From Dastarcus helophoroides (taxonomy: Eukaryota > Arthropoda > Insecta > Coleoptera > Bothrideridae): DNA of 64,000 nucleotides. The position numbers and the translations under genes are program-made. The stretch is taken from the NCBI GenBank assembly GCA_028583605.1, contig CM053328.1, positions 6,729,804 to 6,793,803 of the forward strand, in the 5' to 3' direction. The notes beneath the pieces were generated by a model, which saw only the letters and a program-made list of their open reading frames with translations, had not been told where the DNA came from and made no database searches. Below are positions 18,601-50,884 of this stretch, one piece after another (within the stretch, counting starts at the first letter, position 1; each line of letters starts with the position of its first letter).

Positions 18601-20690
18601 GTGGAAAACCGACCGTCTCCAAATCCCGAGTCTGATTAAACGTAAGCGAATATTCAAAAATGACATCTAAAAGTTAACAAAGTTAAGAAAATAAATAAAA
18701 TGAATATTTGTTTGTGGCGACATCTATGTAAATCATACCATACGAAAAAGGGAACTTTTATAGATTTCTGTAAAACTTTACCTAGCGTGGCATCTATTAT
18801 CGACTTATTCAACACGTATAAAAAATAAATTTTATTTTGGAGCACTATATCATAAAATAGAAATCAAAAGCGTTAATATATTTAAATTACCTGCAAAAAC
18901 CTGCGTCTAAGCAAATGTTTAAAAAATCACATCTAAAGTTAAAACACTAAAAAAATAAATATTTGTTTGTGGCGACATCTATGTAAACTACACCACACAA
19001 AAACTAAAACGTTTATAGAATTCTATAAAATTATATTTAGCGTGACATTTACTATCGACTTGTGAAACTCGTATTAGAAATAAATTTTATTTTGAAGCAT
19101 TATATCATAAAATAGAAACCAAAAGCGATAATTTATTTTAATTAGCTATAAGCAAATACCCGCGTTTGATTAAACGTAGGCGAATGTTTAAAAATCACAT
19201 CTAAAGTTAAAACACAGAAAATAAATATTTGTTTGTGGCGACATCTATGTAAACCATACCACACAAACACGTATTAGAAATAAATTTTATTTTGGAGCAT
19301 TATATCATAAAATAGAAACCAAAAGCGTAAATATATTTAAATCAGCTATAAACAAATATCTGCGTCTAATTAAACGTAAGCAAATGTTTAAAAATCACAT
19401 CTAAAGTTAAAACACTAAAAAAATAAATAATTGTTTGTGGCGACATCTCTGTACATTAAATCACACGAAAACCAAAACGTTTATAGACTTCTGTAAAACT
19501 GTTACTGAGCGTGACATCCACTATCGACTTACTTAACACATTTAAAAAAATAAATTTTATTTTGGAGCACTATATCATAAAATAGAAACCAAAAGCGTAA
19601 ATATATTTAAATCAACTATAAACAAATACTTGCGTCTGATTAAACGTAAGCAAAAGTTTAAAAATCACATCTAAGTTAAAACACTAAGAAAATAAATAGT
19701 TGTTTGTGGCGACATCTATGTAAACTACACTACACAAAGCTAAAACGTTTATAGAATTCTGTAAAATTCTATTTAGCGTGACATTTACTATCGACTTGCC
19801 AAACACGTATTAGAAATAAATTTTATTTTGGAGCATTATATCATAAAATAGAAACCAAAAGCAGTAATTTATTTTGATTAGCTATAAACAAATACTCGCG
19901 TCTGATTAAACGTAGGCGAATGTTTAAAAATCACATCTAAAGTTAAAACATTGAAAAAATATATATTTGTTTGTGGCGACATCTATGTAAACCATACCAC
20001 ACAAAAATTAAAACGTTTATAGACTTCTGTAAAATTGTACTTAGCGTGACATCTACTATTGACTTACCCAACACGTATTAGAAATAAATTTTATTTTGGA
20101 GCATTATATCATAAAATAGATACCAAAGCCGTAAATTATATTTAAATTAGCTATAAACAAAGATCTGCGTCTAGTTAAACATAAACAAATGTTAAAAATT
20201 GCATCTAAAGTTAAAACACTAAGAAAATAAATATTTGTTTGTGGCGACATTTATGAAGATTAAACTACACGAAAATTAAAACGTTTATAAATTTCTGTAA
20301 AATTGTACTTAGCGTCACATCTACTATCGACTTACTCAACACGTATAAAAAATAAATTTTATTTTGGAGAACTAGATCATAAAATAGAAACCAAAAGCGG
20401 TAATATATTTAAATTAGCTATAAACAGATAGCTGCGTCCGATTTAACGTAAGCAAATGTTTAGAAATCACATCTAAAGTAAAAACACTAAGAAAATAAAT
20501 ATTTGTTTGTGGCGACATCTATGTAAATTATACTACACAAAAACCTAAATTTTAGAAGACTTCTGTAATACGGTTTTTAATTAGCGCGACATCTACTATC
20601 CACTTATTCAACATGTATACAAATTAAATTCTATTTTGGAGCAATATACTAAGAAATACAAATTTAAAGCGGTTATAAATTAAAATCAGG
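18600..20690. repeat. Tandem satellite, unit about 267 bp, about 8 copies
   Basis: The landmark TTTGTTTGTGGCGACATCT occurs at about 18707, 18962, 19228, 19430, 19699, 19966, 20234 and 20502, giving spacings of 255, 266, 202, 269, 267, 268 and 268. Each unit carries, in order, CACATCTAAAGTTAAAACAC, the landmark, GCGTGACATCTACTATCGAC and TTTTATTTTGGAGCA. The 202-bp unit lost about 65 bp between ACACAAA and CACGTATTAG. The last copies decay toward 20830. The unit itself holds three ACATCT boxes. No ORF is conserved across copies. Confidence 0.95.
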
Positions 20691-29389: not shown

Positions 29390-29860
29390 TTAAACTCGAA
29401 ATTATGAGTAAAAACTAGTTTTCAAAAAAAAAATCAAAAATCTTTTGAAACTTTGTGAAATGCAAGTCGAAGTTTGAGGAAAAAAAGTAAACATTGAGGC
29501 TATTTCAATTGATTTGCTAATGAAATGTTCTATAAAATGTTGCCCTTTGGACCATAAAAAGGAAAATAATTTCATGCTAAAACATTAGGTATTTGGTGGT
29601 TCATCAGTATTCAATTCTTCCATAAAATCATCTCTAAGATACGCAAATGTTCTCATGAAGTATTCGGATCAAAATCATTTTGAGCTAAAACGTTAGACAT
29701 TTGGTAATTCATCGGTATTTCAATTGTTTTGCCACGAAACATGCTCTTCTTGATAGTTCTAGAGGTTTTAATGTAACTATTCAATAGCGTACATCTTTGT
29801 AAAATGTTCCATATGAAGACAAAATTATAGTGGAAAAAGAAAATATAACTGATGAAATTT
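29390..29860. other. Transition into the 228-bp satellite, with short internal duplication
   Basis: AT-rich sequence in which two related segments occur about 118 bp apart (CTAAAACATTAGGTATTTGG and CTAAAACGTTAGACATTTGG, each followed by TTCATC and GGTATT-like sequence). It looks like degenerate satellite margin. I see no gene. Confidence 0.45.
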
Positions 29861-32800
29861 TGTTTTTCATTGAAATTTTTACCACCAAAAGCGTCGGTAA
29901 CTATTAAAATGTTTCTAGCGCATAATCATTCGATGACGTGCAGCTTGGAAAAATAGTCCATGTGAAGGCAAAATTATAATGGAAAAAGGAAAATATTACT
30001 GATGAACTTTCATTTTTCATTGAAATTTTGACCACCAAAAGACTTGGTAATGTATTAAGATGGGTTGATGTGCACCCAAATACTTCAGATTATGGAGGAT
30101 ATCTAATCTTTGCTCTAAAATAAAACTTCTGCTTACTTTCTAGAGTCTGTAGCATAACCATTCGATAACGTACAAGTTAGAAAAATGTTCCTCATGAAGG
30201 CAAAATTATAGTGGAAAAAGAAAATATTACTGATGATCTTTACTTTTTCATTGAAATTTTGACCACCAAAAGCATCGAGAGATTCGTTGATTGTACCCAA
30301 ATAGTAAGATTATGAAGATGGTCTGCTGTTTACATTAAAATAAAGCTTCTGATTGGTTTCTAGAGTATCTAGCACAACCATTCTATAACGTACAGGTTAG
30401 AAAAATGTTTCACATGAAGGCAACATTTTAGTGGAAAAAGAAAGTATTGCTGATGAACTTTCATTTTTCATGAACATTTTGACCACCAAACGCCTCGGTG
30501 AGTATTAAGATGGGTTAATTGTACCCAAATACGTCAGATTATAGAGGATATCTAATGTTTACTCTAAAATAAAGCATCTGATTACTTTCTACAGTATCTA
30601 ACATAACCATTTGATAACGTATAAGTTAGAAAAATGTTCCACATGAAGGCAAAATTATAGTTGAAAACGAAAGTATTACTGATGAACTTTACTTTTTCAT
30701 TGAAATTTAGACCACCAAAAGCATCGAGAGATTGGTTGATTGTACCCAAATACGTAAGATTATGAAGATGGTCTGCTGTTTACACTAAAATAAAACTTCC
30801 GATTGGTTTCTAGAGTATTTAGCACATTCATTCGATAACGTACAGGTTAGAAAAATGTTCCACATGAAGACAAAATTATAGTGGAAAAAGAAAGTATTAC
30901 TGATGAACTTTCGTTTTTCATTGAAACTTTGACCACCAAAAGCCTCGATAGGTATTAAGATGGGTTGATTGTACCCAAATACGTCAGATTATGGAGGATA
31001 TCTAATGTTTGCTCTAAAATAAAGCTTCTAATTACTTTCCAGAGTCTCTAGAATAACTATTTGATATCGTAGAGGTTGGAAAAATGTTCCACATGAAGAC
31101 AAAATTATAGTGGAAAAAGAAAGTATTACTGATGAACTTTCATTTTTCATTGAAATTTTGACCACCAAAATCATCGATAAGTATTTAGATGGATTGATTA
31201 TACCCAAATTACATAAGATTATGGAGGCAATCTGCTGTTTACTTTAAAATAAAGCTTCTGATGGGTTTCTAGGGTCTCATAACCATTCGGTAAGCTACAG
31301 CTTAGAAAAATGGTTCATATGAAGGCAATGTTGTGGTGAAAAAAGAAAATATTACTGATGAACTTTCGTTTTTCATTGAAATTTTGACCACCAAAAGTAT
31401 CGATAAGAATTAAGATGGGGTGATTGTACCCAAATACGTAAGATTATGGAGGATATCTAACGTTTGCTCTAAAATAAAGCTTCTGATTACTTTTTAGAGT
31501 CTCTGACATAACCATTTGATAATGTACAGGTTAGAAAAATGTTCCACATGAAGGCAACATTTTAGTGGAAAAAGAAAGTATTACTGATGACCTTTCATTT
31601 TCCATGAAAATTTTGACCACCAAACGCCTCGGTGAGCATTAAGATGGGTTGATTGTATCCAGATATGTCAGATTATGGAGGATATCTAATGTTTGCTCTA
31701 AAATAAAGCGTCTGATTACTTTCTACAGTCTCTAGCATAACCATTTGATAACGTACAAGTTAGAAAAATGTTCCACATAAAGGCAAAATTATAGTGGAAA
31801 AAGAAAGTATTACTGATGAACACTCGCTTTTGATTCAAATTTTGACCACCAAAAGCGTCGATAAATATTTAGATGGTTGATTATACCCAAATTACTTTAG
31901 ATTATGGAGGCAATCTGCTGTTTACTTTAAAATAAAGCTTCTGATTGGTTTCTAGGGTCTCTAGCATGACCATTCGGTTACGTACATCTTAGAAAAATGG
32001 TTCATATGAAGACAATGTTATAGTGAAAAAAGAAAATATTACTGATAAACTTTCGTTTTTCATTGAAATTTTGACCACCAAAAGCGTCGATAAGTATTAA
32101 GATGGGTTGATTGTACCCAAATACGTAAGATTATGGAGGAGATCTAACGTTTGCTCTAAAATAAAGCTTCTGATTACTTTCTAGAGTCTCTGACGTAACC
32201 ATTTGATAACTTACAGGTCAGAAAAATGTTCCACATGAAGGCAATATTTTAGTGGAAAAAGAAAGTATTACTGATGAATATTCATTTTCCATGAAAATTT
32301 TGACCACCAAACGCCTTGGTCAGTATTAAGATGGGTTGATTGTACCCAAATACTTCAGGTTATGGAGGATATCTAATGTTTGCTATAAAATAAAGCATCT
32401 GATTACTTTCTACAGTCCAGCGTAACCATTTGATAACGTACAAATTAGAAAAATGTTCCACATGAAGGCAAAATTATTGTGGGAAAAGAAAGTATTACTG
32501 ATGAACTTTCGTTTTGGATTCAAATTTTGATCACCAAAAGCGTCGATAAGTATTTAGATGGGTTGATTGTACCCAAATACGTAAGATTATGGAGGAGATC
32601 TAAAGTTTGCTCTAAAATAAAGCTTCTGATTACTTTCTAGAGTCTCTAACAGAACCATTTGATAACGTACAAGTTAGAAAGATGTTCCACATGAAGGCAA
32701 CATTTTAGTGGAAAAAGAAAGTATTACTGATGAATTTTCATTTGTCATGAAAATGTTGACCACCAAACGCCTCGATAGGTATTAAGATGGGTCGATTGTA

Positions 32801-33445
32801 CCCAAATACGTCAGATTATGGAACATATCTAATGTTTGCTATAAAATAAAGCGTCTGATTACTTTCTACAGTCCAGCATAACCATTTGATAACGTACAAC
32901 TTAGAAAAATGTTCCACATGAAGGCCAAATTATAGTGGAAAAAGAAAGTATTACTGATGAACTTTCGTTTTTGATTCAAATTTTGACCACCAAAAGCGTC
33001 GATAAGTATTTAGATGGGTTGATTATACCTAAATTATGTAAGATGATGGAGGCAATCTGCTGTTTACTTTAAAATAAAGCTCTTGATTGGTTTCTACTCT
33101 CTCTAGCAGAATCATTCGATAATACACAGATTGGAAAAATGTTCCTCATGAAGGCAAAATTATAGTGGAAAAAGAAAATATTATTGATGAACTTTACTTT
33201 TATATTGAAATTTTGACCACCAAAAGCCTCGGTAAGTATTAACATTGGTTGATTATATATAAATACGTAAGATTGTGGAGGCAATCCGCTGTTAACTTTA
33301 AAATAAAATTCTTGATTGGATTCTAGAGTCTCTAGCATAACCATTCGATAACGTACAGGTTAGAAAAATGTTCCACATGAAGACAACATTATAGTGGAAA
33401 AAAAAATATTACTGATGAACCTTCGTTTTCCATTGAAATTTTGAC
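29860..33445. repeat. Tandem satellite, unit about 228 bp, about 16 copies
   Basis: Each unit carries TTTTGACCACCAAA, an AGTATTAAGATGGGTTGATT segment, TACCCAAATACGTAAGATTA, TAAAATAAAGC, AACCATTTGATAACGTACA, AGAAAAATGTTCCACATGAA and GTATTACTGATGAACTTTC. The ACCACCAAA landmark occurs about every 220-232 bp from about 29881 to 33445. Variant positions define three unit types that alternate in the middle of the array (see findings). No frame stays open across units. Confidence 0.95.
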
Positions 33446-34640
33446 CACCAAACGAGTATTTACTTAGATTGATAAGAATACAGCTTAGAAAAATGTACCA
33501 CATGAAGACAAAATTATAGTGGAAAAAGAAAATATTACTGATGAACTTTCGTTTTTCGTTGAAATTTTGACCACCAAACGAGTATTAACCAAGATCGGTA
33601 AGAATACAACTTAGAAAAATGTATCACATGAAGACAAAAGATTATTGACCAATGTAAGGTCGATGAGAATGCTGCTTAGAAAAATGTACCACATGAAGAC
33701 AAAATTATAGTGGAAAAAGAAAATATTACTGATGAACTTTCGTTTTTCGTTGAAATTTTGACCACCAAACGAGTATTAACCAAGATCGGTAAGAATACAA
33801 CTTAGAAAAATGTATCACATGAAGACAAAATTATAGTGGAAAAAGAATTATTACTGATGAACTTTCGTTTTTCATTCAAATTTTGACCACCAAATGATTA
33901 TTAAGTAAGGTCGATGAGAATGCTGCTTAGAAAAATGTTCCACATGAAGGCAAAATTATAGTGGAAAAAGAAAATATTACTGATGAACTTTCGTTTTTCA
34001 TTGAAATTTTGACCACCAAATGGTTGAGAGTTTCCAGGGTCTCTAACATAACCATTCGGCAAGATGAAATGTATGATATAAAGACAAAATTATAGTGGAA
34101 AAAGAAAATATTAGCGGTGAACCTTCGTCTTTCGTTGAAGTTTTGACCACCAAATGATTATTAAGTAAGATAGATAAGATACAGCTTAGCAAAATGGTAC
34201 CACATGAAGCCAAAGTTATAGTGGAAAAAGAAAATGCTACTGATGAGCTTTCGTTTTTTCATTGAAATTTTGGCAACCAAAAGCGTCGATAAATATTAAA
34301 ATGTATCTAGGGCATAACCATTAGATAACTTGCAGCTTAGAAAAATGTCCCATATGAAGGCAAAATTATAGTGAAAAAAGAAACTTTCCTTTTTCATTGA
34401 AATGTTGAGCTCCAAAGTGTCGGTAAGTATTAAAATGTCTATAACGTATAAGCATTCCATAACACAACTTAAAAAAATGTTTCATATGAAGGCAAAATTA
34501 TAATGGAAAAAGAAAGTATTACTGATGAAGTTTCCTTTTTCATTGAAATTTTGACCACCAAAAGCATCGGTAAGTATTAAGATGGGTTGATTGTTCCCAA
34601 ATTATGAAGGCGATCTGCTGCTTACTTTAAAGTAAAGCTT
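33446..34640. repeat. Shortened satellite units of about 127 bp, then decayed margin
   Basis: From 33446 to about 34160 the same landmarks recur every 125-130 bp, because the middle of the 228-bp unit (from TGATTGTACCC through ATAACGTACA) has been deleted and replaced by GAGTATTAACCAAGATCGGT. One unit near 33640-33690 is further truncated. From 34160 to 34640 full-like but degenerate units return. A local short-unit derivative thus expanded within the array. Confidence 0.9.
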
Positions 34641-42133: not shown

Positions 42134-42262
42134 AATTGAAAATACAAATCTTGTCCCCTGAAACCAAGAAAGATTAAAAAGAGTATCTCTTTGAAGATGA
42201 TAGCTTGGCTATCGAAACTTTAATATTTCTTCGTTTCAGGGGACAAAATTTGTATTTCAATT
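42134..42262. mobile_element. Foldback or MITE-like inverted repeat with 44-45 bp arms
   Basis: Arms at 42134-42178 and 42219-42262 are reverse complements with a few differences, sharing TTTCAGGGGACAA and TTTGTATTTCAATT. An inner hairpin GATAGCTTGGCTATC sits at 42199-42213. A single arm recurs at 50781-50826. The dispersed arm suggests a mobile or gene-converted unit. No target duplication or coding sequence was found. Confidence 0.65.
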
Positions 42263-42279
42263 TTTCTTAAAATTAATAA

Positions 42280-43125: not shown

Positions 43126-44597
43126 GAAACTTTTTCCTGGAATTTTGACGTCAATCCCTTTTCGATTATACCAATTCGAAGAAAATAATTAGAAAATTGA
43201 AATTTACCCTCGAAATTTTGAGGAAAAAATGGAAAGTGTGAAAAAGAATTTTTCTAATTCTATAATTTTAGTTTTTTTCCGTTTTTTCCTTTTAAAAACC
43301 GCAGATTCAACTTCAAAGTTGAAATTTAAGCTTGATATTTCTAGAGTCGAAATTTTGAAAATAAAAAAAATTAAAATTATACGCTTTCTTTCCTGATGTT
43401 TTAAGAATAAAATTAAAAATTTGTTCAAAGTTTTTTCGATTTTGTCTCGAAATTTCCACTTTTTTTTTGAGCAACATATTTTCAGAAATCTTAGCCGTTT
43501 TTCGAAATATTGGCTGTAAAGTCGAAATTTTAAAAAATCATTTGGAGAACATTTTTGAGATTAAACCTAAAATTTCGATTTTTTTCCAAACAGGTGCCTT
43601 TATAATCTCCATACTTCTTTAAGTTCAAAAGTTCTTTTATTTCAAAATTTCGTGTCTAAGGTTTTTGCAAAATTTCGACTTTTTTAACTTTATTTTTGAA
43701 GCTTTAAGTTCGACTTTTTTCAATTTTTCCTTTCATTTTATATTTTTTTTATTTTCAACTTCCATTAAAATTTTAACTTTTTCCAGAAATTTTATTTTTT
43801 TTTTGTCAAAATTCTAAGTTTTAGTTTTGAACCCAAAATTTCACCTTCAACTAATTTTTTTCGAAAGGTTTGTACTTTTTTTTTCGAAATGTTGATTTTT
43901 TTCGAGAAATTTCGACTCCAGTTTTCATGTTAGTTTTCAACAAACTTTTCAACTGAAACTCAAAAGTTAGTTTTTTTTTTGACGTGTAAGTTCAACATTT
44001 CGACTTTAATTTGCTGGTTTTGTTAAACAATTTTAAAAGCTTTAAATTTCAACTTTCCACCAAATTTAGGTTATTTTTTCCTACTGGCTTGAAGTTTTAA
44101 CCTTTTTTTTTTCTTCCATTTCCACTTTAAACTCGCTAATGATTTATAAATTCCAAATTTTGTTAATTTCAAGTTTTTCTCAAAATTCCAGTTTTGCTTG
44201 TATTCTTTGTTTAAAAATGCACTTTAAATTCGTAATTTTCACTAATTCCCGAAATTTTAATGATTTAGCTCTGAATTATCTTTTGTAAATTTCGAGTGTC
44301 CTTGTGCGAAATTTTAATTTTTTCCAAAATTCTGAATCTAATATTTCGATTTTTATTATTATTGTTTTTTTAACTTTGGCTTTGAATTTAATATTGCGAT
44401 TTTTGAAGTGGGTGTTATTTTGTATTTCGAACATTCAAATGTCATCCTTAATTTCGAAAAATTTTTTTCTTCGAAATTTTGACTTCTTTTTTTGAACATT
44501 CCAAACCTAGAACAGGAATTTCCATTTTAAACTTCTTATTGTTACAACGCAACGTATTCAATTTCAAGATATTTACTTAGAATTTGGATTCATATTC

Positions 44598-45806
44598 CTT
44601 CCTTCCTTCCTTCCTTCCTTCCTTCCTTCCTTCCTTCCTTCCTTCCTTCCTTCCTTCCTTCCTTCCTTCCTTCCTTCCTTCCTTCCTTCCTTCCTTCCTT
44701 CCTTCCTTCCTTCCTTCCTTCCTTCCTTCCTTCCTTCCTTCCTTCCTTCCTTCCTTCATTCCTTCCTTCCTTCCTTCCTTCCTTCCTTCCTTCCTTCCTT
44801 CCTTCCTTCCTTCCTTCCTTCCTTCCTTCCTTCCTTCCTTCCTTCCTTCCTTCCTTCCTTCCTTCCTTCCTTCCTTCCTTCCTTCCTTCCTTCCTTCCTT
44901 CCTTCCTTCCTTCCTTCCTTGCTTCCTTGCTTCCTTGCTTCCTTGCTTCCTTGCTTTCTTCCTTTCTTCCTTTCTTCCTTTCTTGCTTTTTTGCTTTCTT
45001 GCTTTCTTGCTTTCTTGCTTTCTTGCTTTCTTCCTTTCTTCCTATCTTCCTTTCTTCCTTTCTTCCTTCCTTTCTTCCTTTCTTCCTTCCTTCCTTCCTT
45101 TCTTCCTTTCTTCCTTTCTTCCTTCCTTCCTTCCTTCCTTCCTTCCTTCCTTCCTTCCTTCCTTCTTTCCTTCCTTCCTTCTTTCCTTCCTTCCTTCCTT
45201 CCTTCCTTCCTTTCTTCCTTTCTATCTTTCTTCCTTTATTCCTTTCTTCCTTTCTTTCTTTCTTCCTTTCTTCCTTTCTTCCTTTCTTCCTTTCTTCCTT
45301 TCTTCCTTCCTTCCTTTCTTCCTTTCTTCCTTTCTTCCTTTCTTCCTTTCTTCCTTTCTTCCTTCCTTTCTTCCTTCCTTTCCTCCTTTTTTCTTTCTTC
45401 CATTTTTCCTTTCTTCCTTTCTTCCTTTCTTCCTTTCTTCCTTCCTTCCTTCCTTCCTTTCTTCCTTTCTTCCTTCCTTCCTTCCTTCCTTCCATCCTTC
45501 CTTCCTTCCTTCCTTCCTTTCTTCTTCCTTTCTTCCTTTCTTCCTTCTTCCTTCCTTCCTTCCTTCCTTCCTTCCTTCCTTCCTTCCTTCCTTCCTTCTT
45601 TCCTTCCTTCCTTCCTTCCTTCCTTCTTTCCTTCCTTCCTTCCTTCCTTCCTTCCTTCCTTCCTTCCTTCTTCCTTTCTTCCTTTCTTCCTTTCTTCCTT
45701 CCTTTCTTCCTTCCTTCCTTCCTTCCTTCCTTCCTTTCTTTCTTCCTTTCTTCCTTTCTTCCTTTTTTCCTTTCTTCCTTTCTTCCTTTCTTCCTTCCTT
45801 CCTTCC
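44598..45806. repeat. (TTCC)n microsatellite, about 1.2 kb
   Basis: TTCC repeats are uninterrupted from about 44598 to 44920, apart from one TTCA near 44758. They then become mixed TTCC/TTTC/TTGC. Open frames on both strands (FLPS on +, KEGR on -) run for hundreds of codons and are repeat artefacts. On the minus strand this is (GGAA)n, a known binding array for ETS-class factors in other genomes. Confidence 0.97.
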
Positions 45807-48240
45807 TTCATTGGCTCGTTCATTTATTTCTTCGTCCGTCCGTTCGTTTGTTCGTTCGATCATGTGTTTTTTCGTTCTGTCGTTTTCATTTGTACGTTTG
45901 TTAGTTTCTTCGTTCGTTCCTTCTTTCATTTATTTGTTCCTTCACTTACTCGCTTGTTCCTTCGTTGGTTAATTCGTTTGTTCGTTCCAAATTTTAACAA
46001 AACTTTTTAATCAAATTATTTATTTTTATTTTGAAACTAAAATTTGGCTTTGTATTCGTTCATTCGTTGCTTCATTGTTTCGTTCTTTCATTCATTCGTT
46101 TGTTCTTTTAATCATTTTTTCGTTCGTGTATTCATTCGTTCCTTCATTCGCTCGTTCGTTCATTCTGTCGTTTGTTTCTTTGTTCATTCTTTCGTTCGTT
46201 CTTTCATTTATTCGTACCTTCGTACTGTTCTTCGTTCGTTTCTTCGTCCGTTCTTTTGTTCGTTCTTTCGTTCAGTTTTTTATTCGTTCCTTCATGCTCT
46301 CGTTCGTTCCTTCATTCTTTCGTTCGTTCGTTCCTTGGTTCGTTTTTTTTCATTCGTTCGTTCGTTCGTTCCAAATTTCGTTGTAAATTAATTATTAGTT
46401 TTAATTTTTGTTATTTTGAAAATTTGGATTTATATTCGCTGGTTCGTTGCGTCATTCGTTCGTTTCTTTGATCCGTTCGTTTCTTGGTTCATTTGTTCTT
46501 TCATTCGTTCGTTCGTTCTTCCTTTCGTTCGTTATTTCGTTCTCTTTGATTCATTCGTTCCTTTATTCGCTCGTTCGTTGTTTCATTTTGTTCATTTTGT
46601 TTCTTCGTTTGTTTATTCAGTCGTTCCTTCGTTCGTTCGTCCTTTCATTTGTTTTTTCGTTCTGTCATTTTCATTCATACGTTTGTTAGTTTCTTCGTTC
46701 GTTCCTTCTTTCATTGGTTTGTTCCTTCACTCTCTCGCTCGTTCGTTCGTTTCTTCGTCCATCCCTTCGTTTGTTTTTCCGTTCTGCCGTTTTCATTTGT
46801 ACGTTTGTTAGTTTCTTCGTTCGTTCCTTCTTGCATTTGTTTGTTCCTTCACTCGCTCGATTGTTCGTTCAAAATTTTGTCAAATTTTTTTAAAACAAAT
46901 TATTTTTATTTTGAAAATAAAATTTGGATTTGTATTCGTTCGTTCGTTGCTTCATTCTTTCGTTCTTTCATTAATTCGTTCTTTTTTTTTCGTTCTTTTA
47001 TTCATTTTTTCGTTCGTTTTTTCATTCGTTCTTTTATTCATTAGTTCATTCACTTGTTCGTTCATTTTTTCGTTTGTTCATTCTTTCGTCTTTCGTCCGT
47101 TCTTTCATTTTTTTCGTTTCTTTGTGCTTTCGTTCGTTCCTTCGTGCTCGCGTGCGTTCCTTCGTTCGTTCGTTCATTCTTTTATTCGTTTCTTCGTGCT
47201 CTCGTTCTTTCCTTCGTTCGTTCGTTCCTTCATTCGTTCTTTCGGTTGTTCTTTCGTTCGTTCTTTAATTTGTCCATTCCTTCATTAGTTCGGTCGTTCG
47301 TTCCAAATTTCAGTAAATCTTTTAAATACATTTGTAGTTTTAATTTTTTTTATTTTGATACTAAAGTTTGGATTTAGATTCGTTCGTTCGTTGCTTTATG
47401 CGTTTTTTCGTTCGTTTTCCCATTCGTTCGTTCATGCTTTCGTTCGTTCGTCATTTCGTTCTTTTATTCATTTGCTCATTCGTTTATTATTTCGTTCGTT
47501 CCTTTATTCGTTCATTCGTTCTTTCATTTGTTCTTTCCTTCATTCCTTCGTTCGTTCTTTCATTTGTTCTTTCGTTAGTTCTTTTATTCGTTCCTTCTAC
47601 CATTCGTTCGTTCGTTCGTATTTTCGTTCGTTCTTGCATTCGTTCTTCCATTCGTTCGTTCCTTCATTAGTTCGCTCGTTCGTTCCAAATTTCGGTAAAT
47701 CTTTTAATAAATTATTAGTTTTTATTTTTTTATTTTGATACTAAAGTTTGGATTTATATTCGTTCGTTGCTTTAGCTTTTTTTCGTTCGTTTTCTCATTC
47801 GTTCGTTCGTTCGTTCGTTCGTTCATCCTTTCGTTCGTTCGTCATTTCGTTCTTTTATTTATTTGCTCATTCGTTTATTATTTCGTTCGTTGCTTTATTC
47901 GTTCATTTGTTCTTTCATTTGTTCGTTCCTTCATTCGTTCGTTCTTTCATTCGTTCTTTCGTTAGTTCTTTTATTCATTCCTTCTACCATTCGTTCGTTT
48001 GTTTCTTCATTCGTTCATCTTTTCGTTCGTTCTTGCATTCGTTCTTCCATTCGTTCGTTCCTTCATTAGTTCGATTGTTCGTTCCAAATTTCAGTAAATC
48101 TTTTTAAATAAATTATTAGTTTTTATTTTTTTATTTTGAAACTAAAATTCGGACTTATTCGTATGTACATTGGTTTATTCGCAAGCTCGTTCTTTTATTC
48201 ATGGATTCCTTTATTCACTCATCGTTGGTTCATTTGTCCG
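45807..48240. repeat. TTCG/TTCA tetranucleotide array in compound units of about 380-500 bp
   Basis: TTCG and TTCA quadruplets dominate. They are broken at about 45987, 46370, 46870, 47303, 47685 and 48083 by a related AT-rich spacer (GTTCCAAATTTCAGTAAATC, then TTATTAGTTTT, TATTTTGAAACTAAAATTTG). The array is therefore a higher-order tandem repeat of spacer plus tetranucleotides, with spacings of 383, 500, 433, 382 and 398. Units at 47303, 47685 and 48083 are the most alike. ORFs here are rich in S, F, R and V and are artefacts. Confidence 0.92.
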
Positions 48241-48437: not shown

Positions 48438-48547
48438 TAAGTCAATATGTATGCAAGAAGAATGCAACCTAGACTACAAATTCATGCAGCCCTCCAGGCG
48501 TGTATAGTGAATCATAGGTAGCTGAACTACCAACAGTTGAAACACTG

Positions 48548-48556
48548 CGCCACCTA
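48548..48556 (-). promoter_or_regulatory. CTCF-like core motif inside the hammerhead element
   Basis: The minus strand reads AGGTGGCGC, extended to CTAGGTGGCGCA. This is the core reported for insect CTCF. One 9-bp match is weak evidence of binding, but being carried on a mobile element makes it worth noting. Confidence 0.3.
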
Positions 48557-48600
48557 GCGAAGCGGTTGCTCTCTAGGAGAGTTCCCAGAAGACAAGGATT

Positions 48601-48756
48601 CTATAATGCACAGACCAATAGGTTTGAACATTTATTAGATTCGAAGTTTGGAAACCAAATACCGGTTTCGATCTTGTTAGATCTCGTCAGTTTGGTATTT
48701 GGTTTCCAAACTTCGAATCTAATAAATGTTCAAACCTATTGGTCTGTGCATTATAG
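48601..48756. repeat. Perfect 63-bp inverted repeat around the ribozyme core
   Basis: Bases 48601-48663 are exactly the reverse complement of 48694-48756, with a 30-base spacer. In the full hairpin the ribozyme core sits in the loop and the CCAAATACC segment pairs with GGTATTTGG. In the ribozyme fold a 7-base slip occurs next to the core. Two exclusive RNA folds are therefore possible. Confidence 0.95.
48646..48711 (-). ncRNA. Type I hammerhead ribozyme
   Basis: Read on the minus strand, the core is CTGACGA, stem II GATC/GATC with loop TAACAA, then GAA, a palindromic minimal stem III ACCGGT and cleavage residue A. This gives a GUA site between + positions 48660 and 48659. Stem I inner helix is CCAAA (48695-48691) with TTTGG (48659-48655). 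A 7-base bulge CCAAATA (48702-48696) separates it from the outer helix GTTTGGAAA (48711-48703) with TTTCCAAAC (48654-48646). All invariant core bases are present. The bulge facing loop II is where type I hammerheads make stabilising tertiary contacts. The loopless 3-bp stem III resembles the minimal hammerheads of Penelope-like elements and retrozymes, which often act best as dimers. Cleavage activity is not shown. Confidence 0.85.
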
Positions 48757-48768
48757 TAAGTCAATATG

Positions 48769-49170
48769 GTTCGTTCCTTCATTCGCTCATTCGTTTAATA
48801 TTTCGTTCATTCTTTCTTTCATACGTTTGTTCCTTCTCCGTTCGTTCGTTCTTTTATTCGTTCATTCTACCATTCTTGCGTTCGTTCGTTTCTTCATCCG
48901 TTCGTTCTTGCGTTCATTTTTTCATTCGTTCGTCTTTTCGTTCGTTCTTGCATTCATTCTTCCATTCATTCGTTCCTTCATTAGTCCGATCGTTCGTTTC
49001 AAATTTCACTAAATTTTTTAAAATAAGTTATTAGTTTTAATTTTTTTTTGAAACTAAAATTCGAATGTATTCATTTGTTCATTGCATCATTCGCAAGTTC
49101 GTTCTTTCATCATTCGTTCATTCATTCATCGTTCGTTCATTCATCCGTCGTCCGTTTGTTCTCTACAAAA
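48769..49170. repeat. TTCG/TTCA array resumed after the insertion
   Basis: Quadruplet arrays continue directly from the right target duplication. The AT spacer of the compound unit recurs at about 48998-49065. This shows the hammerhead element landed inside a pre-existing compound repeat. Confidence 0.85.
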
Positions 49171-50780: not shown

Positions 50781-50826
50781 TTAATCTTTTTTGGTTTCAG
50801 GGGACGAGATTTGTATTTCAATTTTT
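50781..50826. mobile_element. Single arm of the foldback seen at 42134-42262
   Basis: TTAATCTTTTTTGGTTTCAG, then GGGGACGAGATTTGTATTTC, matches the reverse complement of the left arm at 42134-42178 over its length with few differences. No second arm is nearby. Confidence 0.65.
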
Positions 50827-50860
50827 GAAGATAACCAAGGATCAGTTCGTTCTACCAAAA

Positions 50861-50884
50861 AATAATAATAATAATAATAATAAT
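50861..50884. repeat. (AAT)n microsatellite, about 7 units
   Basis: Uninterrupted AAT repeats immediately after a short A-run. Confidence 0.9.

Follow-up and report, generated by a model that had tools for sequence, protein, structure and literature searches.

How did a 307-bp insert carrying a hammerhead ribozyme core come to lie between two identical 12-bp sequences in the genome of the beetle Dastarcus helophoroides, and what kind of element is it? The insert is located in the window analysed here, a stretch of 64,000 nucleotides (contig CM053328.1, positions 6,729,804 to 6,793,803) belonging to a 539-Mb assembly (GCA_028583605.1), and the genome searches reported below cover that assembly. 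A COX1 stretch of the assembly, translated with the invertebrate mitochondrial code, shares 95% identity with a record labelled Cucujiformia, and the labels inspected among 120 listed of 7,986 matches are beetle taxa, with one Endopterygota label among them, in keeping with a beetle host most likely belonging to Cucujiformia.

Anatomy of the window insertion and its ribozyme

The insert is bounded exactly by copies of TAAGTCAATATG at 48438–48449 and 48757–48768, confirming the 12-bp target duplications proposed in a sequence-only reading of the window, and it is less AT-rich than its surroundings as that reading had also noted, with a GC content of 40.7% compared to 27.2% for the whole window. 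It consists of two arms, namely a 249-nt arm that begins at start site A on the left flank, and a 63-nt arm whose outer end (unit 152) places start site B at the right flank. The arms overlap by GGTAT, a 5-nt microhomology, and their meeting point is stem I of the ribozyme. A perfect 63-bp inverted repeat (48601–48663 and 48694–48756) with a 30-nt spacer results from the turnaround, and the hammerhead core sits in this spacer and the inner arm of the repeat. Long TTCC/TTCG-type simple-sequence arrays are found around the insertion at 44595–48084 and 48769–48998. The features are as follows.

48438–48449, no strand: left target-site duplication TAAGTCAATATG, exact letters
48450–48756, minus strand (the sense of the ribozyme RNA): retrozyme insertion, a copy of the 379-bp RZ1 family
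48450–48698, plus strand: left arm, running antisense to the ribozyme from unit 1 (start site A) through unit 249
48601–48663, no strand: left half of the turnaround-derived perfect 63-bp inverted repeat
48660–48690, minus strand: hammerhead core CTGACGA/GATC-TAACAA-GATC/GAA/ACCGGT/A, from pattern match, Rfam HH9 and letters
48694–48756, minus strand: right arm, unit 214 to unit 152, ribozyme-sense on the plus strand
48757–48768, no strand: right target-site duplication TAAGTCAATATG, exact letters

The 31-nt minus-strand core (CTGACGA-GATC-TAACAA-GATC-GAA-ACCGGT-A, 48690 to 48660) has the characteristics of a type I hammerhead, including the conserved core CTGACGA/GAA/GTA, a GATC stem II and a short stem III. 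The predicted cleavage site lies on the minus strand between 48660 and 48659, corresponding to unit positions 211/210. The core is not a chance match, since the exact pattern was counted 3,253 times across the genome (1,629 + 1,624), as opposed to 0 + 0 for a reversed-pattern control. The best hammerhead covariance-model match of RZ1 is Hammerhead_HH9 (RF02275), which scored 23.7 bits on the window copy (model positions 11–63 of 77) and 34.4 bits (E 7.1e-7) over the full model length on the canonical unit, both below the gathering score of 52; no Rfam family reached its gathering score anywhere in the window. The covariance-model check suggested in the sequence-only reading thus returned a match, but a sub-threshold one.

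That reading also described the hammerhead as complete. This holds for the core, which is intact, but is too strong for the ribozyme as a whole as the copied-back strand has taken the place of the natural 5′ strand of stem I in the window copy. Predicted RNA energies, in which stem III is left uncounted, are −108.9 kcal/mol for the turnaround hairpin versus −94.3 kcal/mol for a hammerhead-compatible fold of the window copy, and −43.1 and −39.5 kcal/mol for the same two folds of the canonical unit. The exchanged strand of stem I together with the more stable predicted hairpin suggests that the window copy is probably a poor ribozyme, with the hairpin probably masking or disabling it. Rfam miRNA models also matched the window hairpin, all below their gathering scores, and were taken as long-hairpin matches.

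Elsewhere in the window, 16 CTGATGA...GAAA strings at 29849–34522 were considered as hammerheads and rejected by eye, stem II being unpaired; they lie in and beside a 229-bp tandem repeat (29920–34515). Another tandem repeat, with a unit of ~200–268 bp and about five copies of the longer unit, occupies 19065–20648.

Outer ends of RZ1 and of a second family, RZ2

Genome searches returned 192 matches to the 307-bp element (best 40 of 337 candidates) and 162 matches to the 379-bp unit (best 40 of 1,163 candidates). RZ1 copies are short, very similar insertions of tandem 379-bp units, up to about five per arm, which agrees with the unit length of about 150–450 bp and the short tandem arrays that characterise retrozymes. 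Also as in retrozymes, the unit is low in GC (43%) and non-coding, the longest stop-free stretch being 74 amino acids in four joined units, and target-site duplications are longer than 4 bp. The sequence-only reading of a non-autonomous retroelement is therefore upheld, in that RZ1 is a non-coding, multi-copy, tandem element of the type known as animal retrozymes, and the genome also contains Penelope-like elements (PLEs) that encode reverse transcriptase (RT) and GIY-YIG domains. As that reading also held, the 307-bp insert is too short to encode anything, and the unit is likewise devoid of coding capacity. Its proposed search for copy number and tandem arrangement has a clear outcome in the thousands of exact cores and the tandem units. 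Rather than the solo terminal repeat that it offered as a possibility, the evidence favours a minimal two-armed (palindromic) insertion of the 379-bp unit.

The sample comprised 41 RZ1 loci, namely the window copy plus 40 chosen among the listed matches (listed arrays outside this fetched set include C6:27778699, C7:19355743 and C12:23365853), to which were added six loci at the beginning of contig C1 whose cores pair closely as minus/plus, the feature for which they were selected. RZ1 copies are typically two-armed, and such loci have a left arm antisense to the ribozyme and a right arm in sense orientation, joined in mid-insert. Nearly all outer ends fall at one of two unit positions, ~1 or ~150; they were scored as A if ≤11 nt from unit 1 and as B at unit 143–160. 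A script found 29 of the 41 loci to be two-ended, 16 of them A/B and 13 B/A (including L009, which has Ns directly past its A end), and a further two whose short right arms it had missed (L019 and L021) are A/B, bringing the total to 31. Four of the six C1 core pairs are likewise A/B or B/A with both ends readable, the ends of the remaining two (L085 and L087) being decayed. All 35 two-armed loci with both ends readable are thus A/B or B/A with no instance of A/A or B/B, an outcome with a probability of 2^-35 if the ends were independent and even. Among 100 listed C1 cores (of the 3,253), 16 adjacent pairs are within 600 bp of each other, comprising 11 minus–plus, 3 plus–plus, 2 minus–minus and no plus–minus pairs. 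The ten sampled loci outside the end count are seven called one-armed by the script (L023, L024, L028, L061, L068, L070 and L074), L010 with Ns at its right, and L063 and L078 with left ends at unit 349 and 288, respectively. One of these, L061, has an 18-nt left piece from unit 14, an A right end and no target-site duplication, and is a possible A/A-like exception to the rule.

Exact target-site duplications of at least 8 nt, both copies of which had to end ≤4 nt from the insert boundary, flank 32 of the 35 two-ended loci (11–13 nt in 26), as compared to 8 of 1,190 mismatched left/right flanks; 3 of 9 one-armed or odd loci also have them. Short arrays of few-hundred-bp units are reminiscent of tandem satellite DNA, and foldback artefacts exist in long-read data, so that either a satellite or a palindromic misassembly holding a hammerhead by chance might be envisaged. 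We consider this highly improbable in view of the contrast in duplication frequency, the RZ1 matches on each of contigs C1–C13, and the two constant end positions in the counted copies. Equally hard to credit is a DNA transposon, MITE or fold-back element with terminal inverted repeats, which would account for the 63-bp inverted repeat, the target-site duplications and the absence of coding capacity, but not for outer ends that are unlike one another (A and B), arm lengths and joints that vary by locus, and tandem units.

A looser core pattern, which matched 709 + 744 times with RZ1 variants included (control 4 + 4), revealed a second family, RZ2, with the core CTGATGAG-GCC-AAGGAA-GGC-CGAAAC and a unit of 467 bp, slightly over the retrozyme range. 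RZ2 and RZ1 have no match to each other at E ≤ 1. Judged by match coordinates, 16 of 40 RZ2 loci are two-armed, every one of them antisense-then-sense, and the 13 whose two ends are both readable all combine an X end with a Y end, the right end being unreadable in the other three. The remaining 24 loci are one-armed, 21 of them with a Y end, a proportion to be read with the query in mind, which was opened at Y such that an arm filling it to the edge was called Y. The grouping took 108 of 109 match rows, omitting one overlay row on contig C5. Four RZ2 loci were fetched, of which L097, one of the 13, is X/Y with a 13-nt duplication. Both L098, whose X end falls 19 nt short, and L099, a Y/X locus, are consistent with the rule, and L100 is one-armed; no exact-match duplication was found at the expected place in these three, while the flanks of L099 are similar by eye. 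A two-armed RZ2 insertion, L096 (G000:C3:12966362-12970276), lies inside a mitochondrial-type COX1 stretch for which uninterrupted COX1 provides a natural empty site; its right arm stops within the ribozyme and its duplication appears short (ACAGG, by eye).

When the RZ1 unit (L009:1084-1462) is folded as a circle, A lies on one strand and B on the other of a predicted stem (pair probabilities 0.76–0.98) that closes a structured domain of ~150 nt. An RNA-structure link between the two start sites was considered as a general rule and rejected; it holds for RZ1 and fails for RZ2, in whose predicted fold X and Y have no common stem, indicating that a start-site stem is not general.

Template and joints of the two arms

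The relationship between the arms can be assessed from rare variants, defined as those found in at most two loci of a set of 45 RZ1 loci and 173 unit pieces. Both arms cover the positions of 76 such variants, of which 13 recur in all units of the two arms, 60 occur in just one unit and 3 in part of the units. Difference rates are 0.0027 within an arm, 0.0034 to the other arm of the same locus and 0.0086 between loci. Variant sharing and difference rates together indicate that a single monomeric sequence most likely served, over repeated rounds of copying, as the source of both arms. The simplest template of this kind, and the one we favour, is a circle, in line with the earlier suggestion of spread through a circular RNA, with the division of rare variants between every unit and one unit pointing the same way. 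A cleaved linear monomer is not the template of arms longer than a unit, as these read through the cleavage site.

Uniform arms could also be derived from a uniform linear multimer, and more broadly priming from two sides might have taken place on a linear multimeric array transcript, or on two RNAs, in place of one circle. Source arrays with several units exist, PLE protein in vitro appeared to use unprocessed RNA according to PMC11167929, and two loci have non-uniform units: in L012 just one arm carries a 5-nt insertion, in its units 2 and 3, and L016 has a cluster of changes confined to one unit, neither of which is simply explained by a single monomer. The nearly all-or-one distribution of rare variants argues against such templates, and we judge them to be a minority possibility, if a real one, relative to copying of both arms from one circular RNA.

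Of 32 RZ1 turnarounds, 19 have an overlap of 0–6 nt and 13 have 1–28 nt between the exact matches, some of this filler being partly unit sequence given that arm extension was stopped at the first mismatch (as at L026, L063, L065, L073 and L078, where it is partly unit sequence with a mismatch). L025 has an additional 27-nt piece. Joints are spread over the unit apart from one hot spot, with the right arm ending at unit 205–214 in 7 of 34 joints (L001, L013, L018, L020, L066, L019 and L021), adjoining the predicted cleavage site at 210/211. This hot spot might result from run-off where a ribozyme has been cleaved, or from annealing at stem I.

The window joint, with its GGTAT overlap and 30-nt loop, would make a plausible snap-back hairpin, and self-priming, in which one cDNA from one cut strand snaps back and copies towards the flank, is the published reading of rotifer Penelope palindromes (PMC3846280). 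A cDNA folded back in this manner copies its own start, and outer ends are therefore expected to match or to be randomly truncated, but they differ in the fixed A/B way at 35 of 35 loci. Overlaps of 5–6 nt are moreover confined to 3 of 32 joints, and the right arm is sometimes longer than the left (1,259 versus 187 nt in L015). We accordingly hold self-priming to be improbable for RZ1, and prefer priming from two sides.

Penelope-like elements, a proposed mechanism and known systems

Genes of the Penelope type are present in the genome, as evidenced by GIY-YIG matches, 91 of which are over the cut-off with E ≤ 0.001, and by RVT_1 and GIY-YIG domains in one frame in both PLE ORFs scanned, each of which is 5′-truncated. 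The 307-bp insert itself does not encode the RT and GIY-YIG of a PLE proper. Two-armed insertions also occur in two PLE families, PLE1 and PLE2. Four of five readable PLE1 insertions (L080, L082, L093 and L095) have a tail of ~35 nt at one end and none at the other, and the fifth, L091, is a counterexample with tail/tail ends and no target-site duplication; L092 and L094 are unreadable, and L083 and L084 have one arm. Duplications are present in L093 and L095, none is convincing in L082, and a 9-nt candidate in L080, CTTAAAAAT, would be compatible with a tail extending 21 nt past the BLAST end (by eye). For PLE2 (query L081, best 40 of 10,031 candidates), all ten readable two-armed insertions are tail/no-tail and one more is unreadable, with no same/same ends and no plus-then-minus neighbours among the matches listed. 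This grouping used 54 of 91 listed rows, omitting the self match and rows overlaying via the query's own inverted copy, and a locus output twice (C8:6484065) was counted once. Decayed PLE2 pieces are found in the window itself at 42134–42265 and 50786–50862, the former a small two-armed insert whose ends both seem to be no-tail, with a TSD-like 12-mer, TTTCTTAAAATT (by eye), and this looks like a counterexample to the one-tail rule.

Taken across families, two end positions with one at each end were observed in RZ1 (35/35), RZ2 (13/13), PLE2 (10/10 of those listed) and PLE1 (4/5). Comparing the retrozyme units with the 3′ parts of the two PLE families gave a 20-nt match at E 0.4–0.7 as the best result, and no Rfam hammerhead was found at E ≤ 0.5 in six PLE loci scanned. 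The linkage to Penelope suggested from the window sequence is thus supported by the likeness in insertion anatomy, but not by any pLTR sequence link in the PLE parts compared.

We posit a scheme for RZ1 insertion in which the self-cleavage, the circle and the enzyme are each putative. Transcripts of tandem copies would self-cleave and then circularise. A Penelope-type RT/GIY-YIG enzyme would cut both target strands about 10–13 bp apart, in line with the observed target-site duplications, and each cut 3′ end would prime reverse transcription of the same RNA, one at site A and the other at site B, thereby accounting for the two ends observed. Both cDNAs would travel round the RNA for up to about five rounds before their far ends were joined, consistent with the observed arm lengths and joints. 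The resulting insertion would consist of antisense units followed by a joint and then sense units, one flank bearing A and the opposite flank B. On this basis, we consider it likely that window positions 48450–48756 represent one RZ1 insertion made by Penelope-type two-sided priming, at A and B, on one probably circular RNA. Among the observations that speak against the scheme are the A–B spacing of ~150 nt, which exceeds the PLE tail of ~35 nt, and the right arms ending at unit 205–214, which the model does not predict.

A bolder hypothesis, to which we give roughly even chances, is that insertion is an obligate two-site event in which a pair of PLE enzymes loads the two start sites of one circular ribozyme RNA, each onto a different strand of a single cut, with both polymerases then travelling round that circle, and that the same scheme, rather than self-priming, explains Penelope inverted repeats. 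If true, each two-armed copy preserves the outcome of rolling-circle reverse transcription begun on the two sides of the cut. Two-sided priming also provides an alternative to self-priming as the origin of PLE inverted repeats, and the 379-nt RZ1 RNA could be a minimal substrate for testing PLE insertion in vitro.

Animal retrozymes have been described as tandem repeats with PLEs proposed as their mover, a proposal based on features in common and on the two kinds of element occurring together (Cervera & de la Pena 2020, PMC7229834). The word 'inverted' is absent from the main text of that paper, and in the portion of PMC7761336 drawn on here it occurs only in a reference title; the portions used of PMC8490949 and PMC4918200 have nothing further on two-armed retrozyme architecture. 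No work on two-armed retrozyme arrays or the A/B rule was found among the literature titles and abstracts searched. The element type is already known, and the two-armed, one-start-site-per-side architecture in two unrelated families appears to be new. Linking two unrelated retrozyme families to the two-start-site signature of PLEs points to the moving enzyme, and this genome constitutes a dense natural data set in which the insertion ends, joints and shared variants of RZ1 and RZ2 record the reaction.

RZ1 resembles the metazoan non-LTR retrozymes of PMC7229834 in its type I hammerhead with very short stem III, its unit of a few hundred bp, and its tandem units, low GC, target-site duplications, lack of coding capacity and coexistence with PLEs. 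It differs from their description as tandem repeats in being two-armed, with A on one side, B on the other and a common template. Penelope inserts with inverted pLTRs and an optional tail at one of them have been reported (PMC3846280), and purified PLE protein cleaves and extends both strands, RT starting at two internal sites that match and explain the genomic tail, with hammerhead mutants having no effect on in vitro insertion (PMC11167929). RZ1 shares with the PLE insertions of these two papers head-to-head arms, target-site duplications and two end positions. Typically one PLE end has an extra segment and the other lacks it, as seen in PLE1 and PLE2 here with exceptions. Unlike PLEs, the retrozyme codes for nothing, its units are tandem, and its start sites are ~150 nt rather than ~35 nt apart. 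L1 twin priming likewise has a single RNA primed by two target ends and yields an inversion-containing product, but there it is an infrequent, incidental event that sets out from a poly(A) start, whereas RZ1 uses two fixed start sites, one per side, across 35 two-ended loci.
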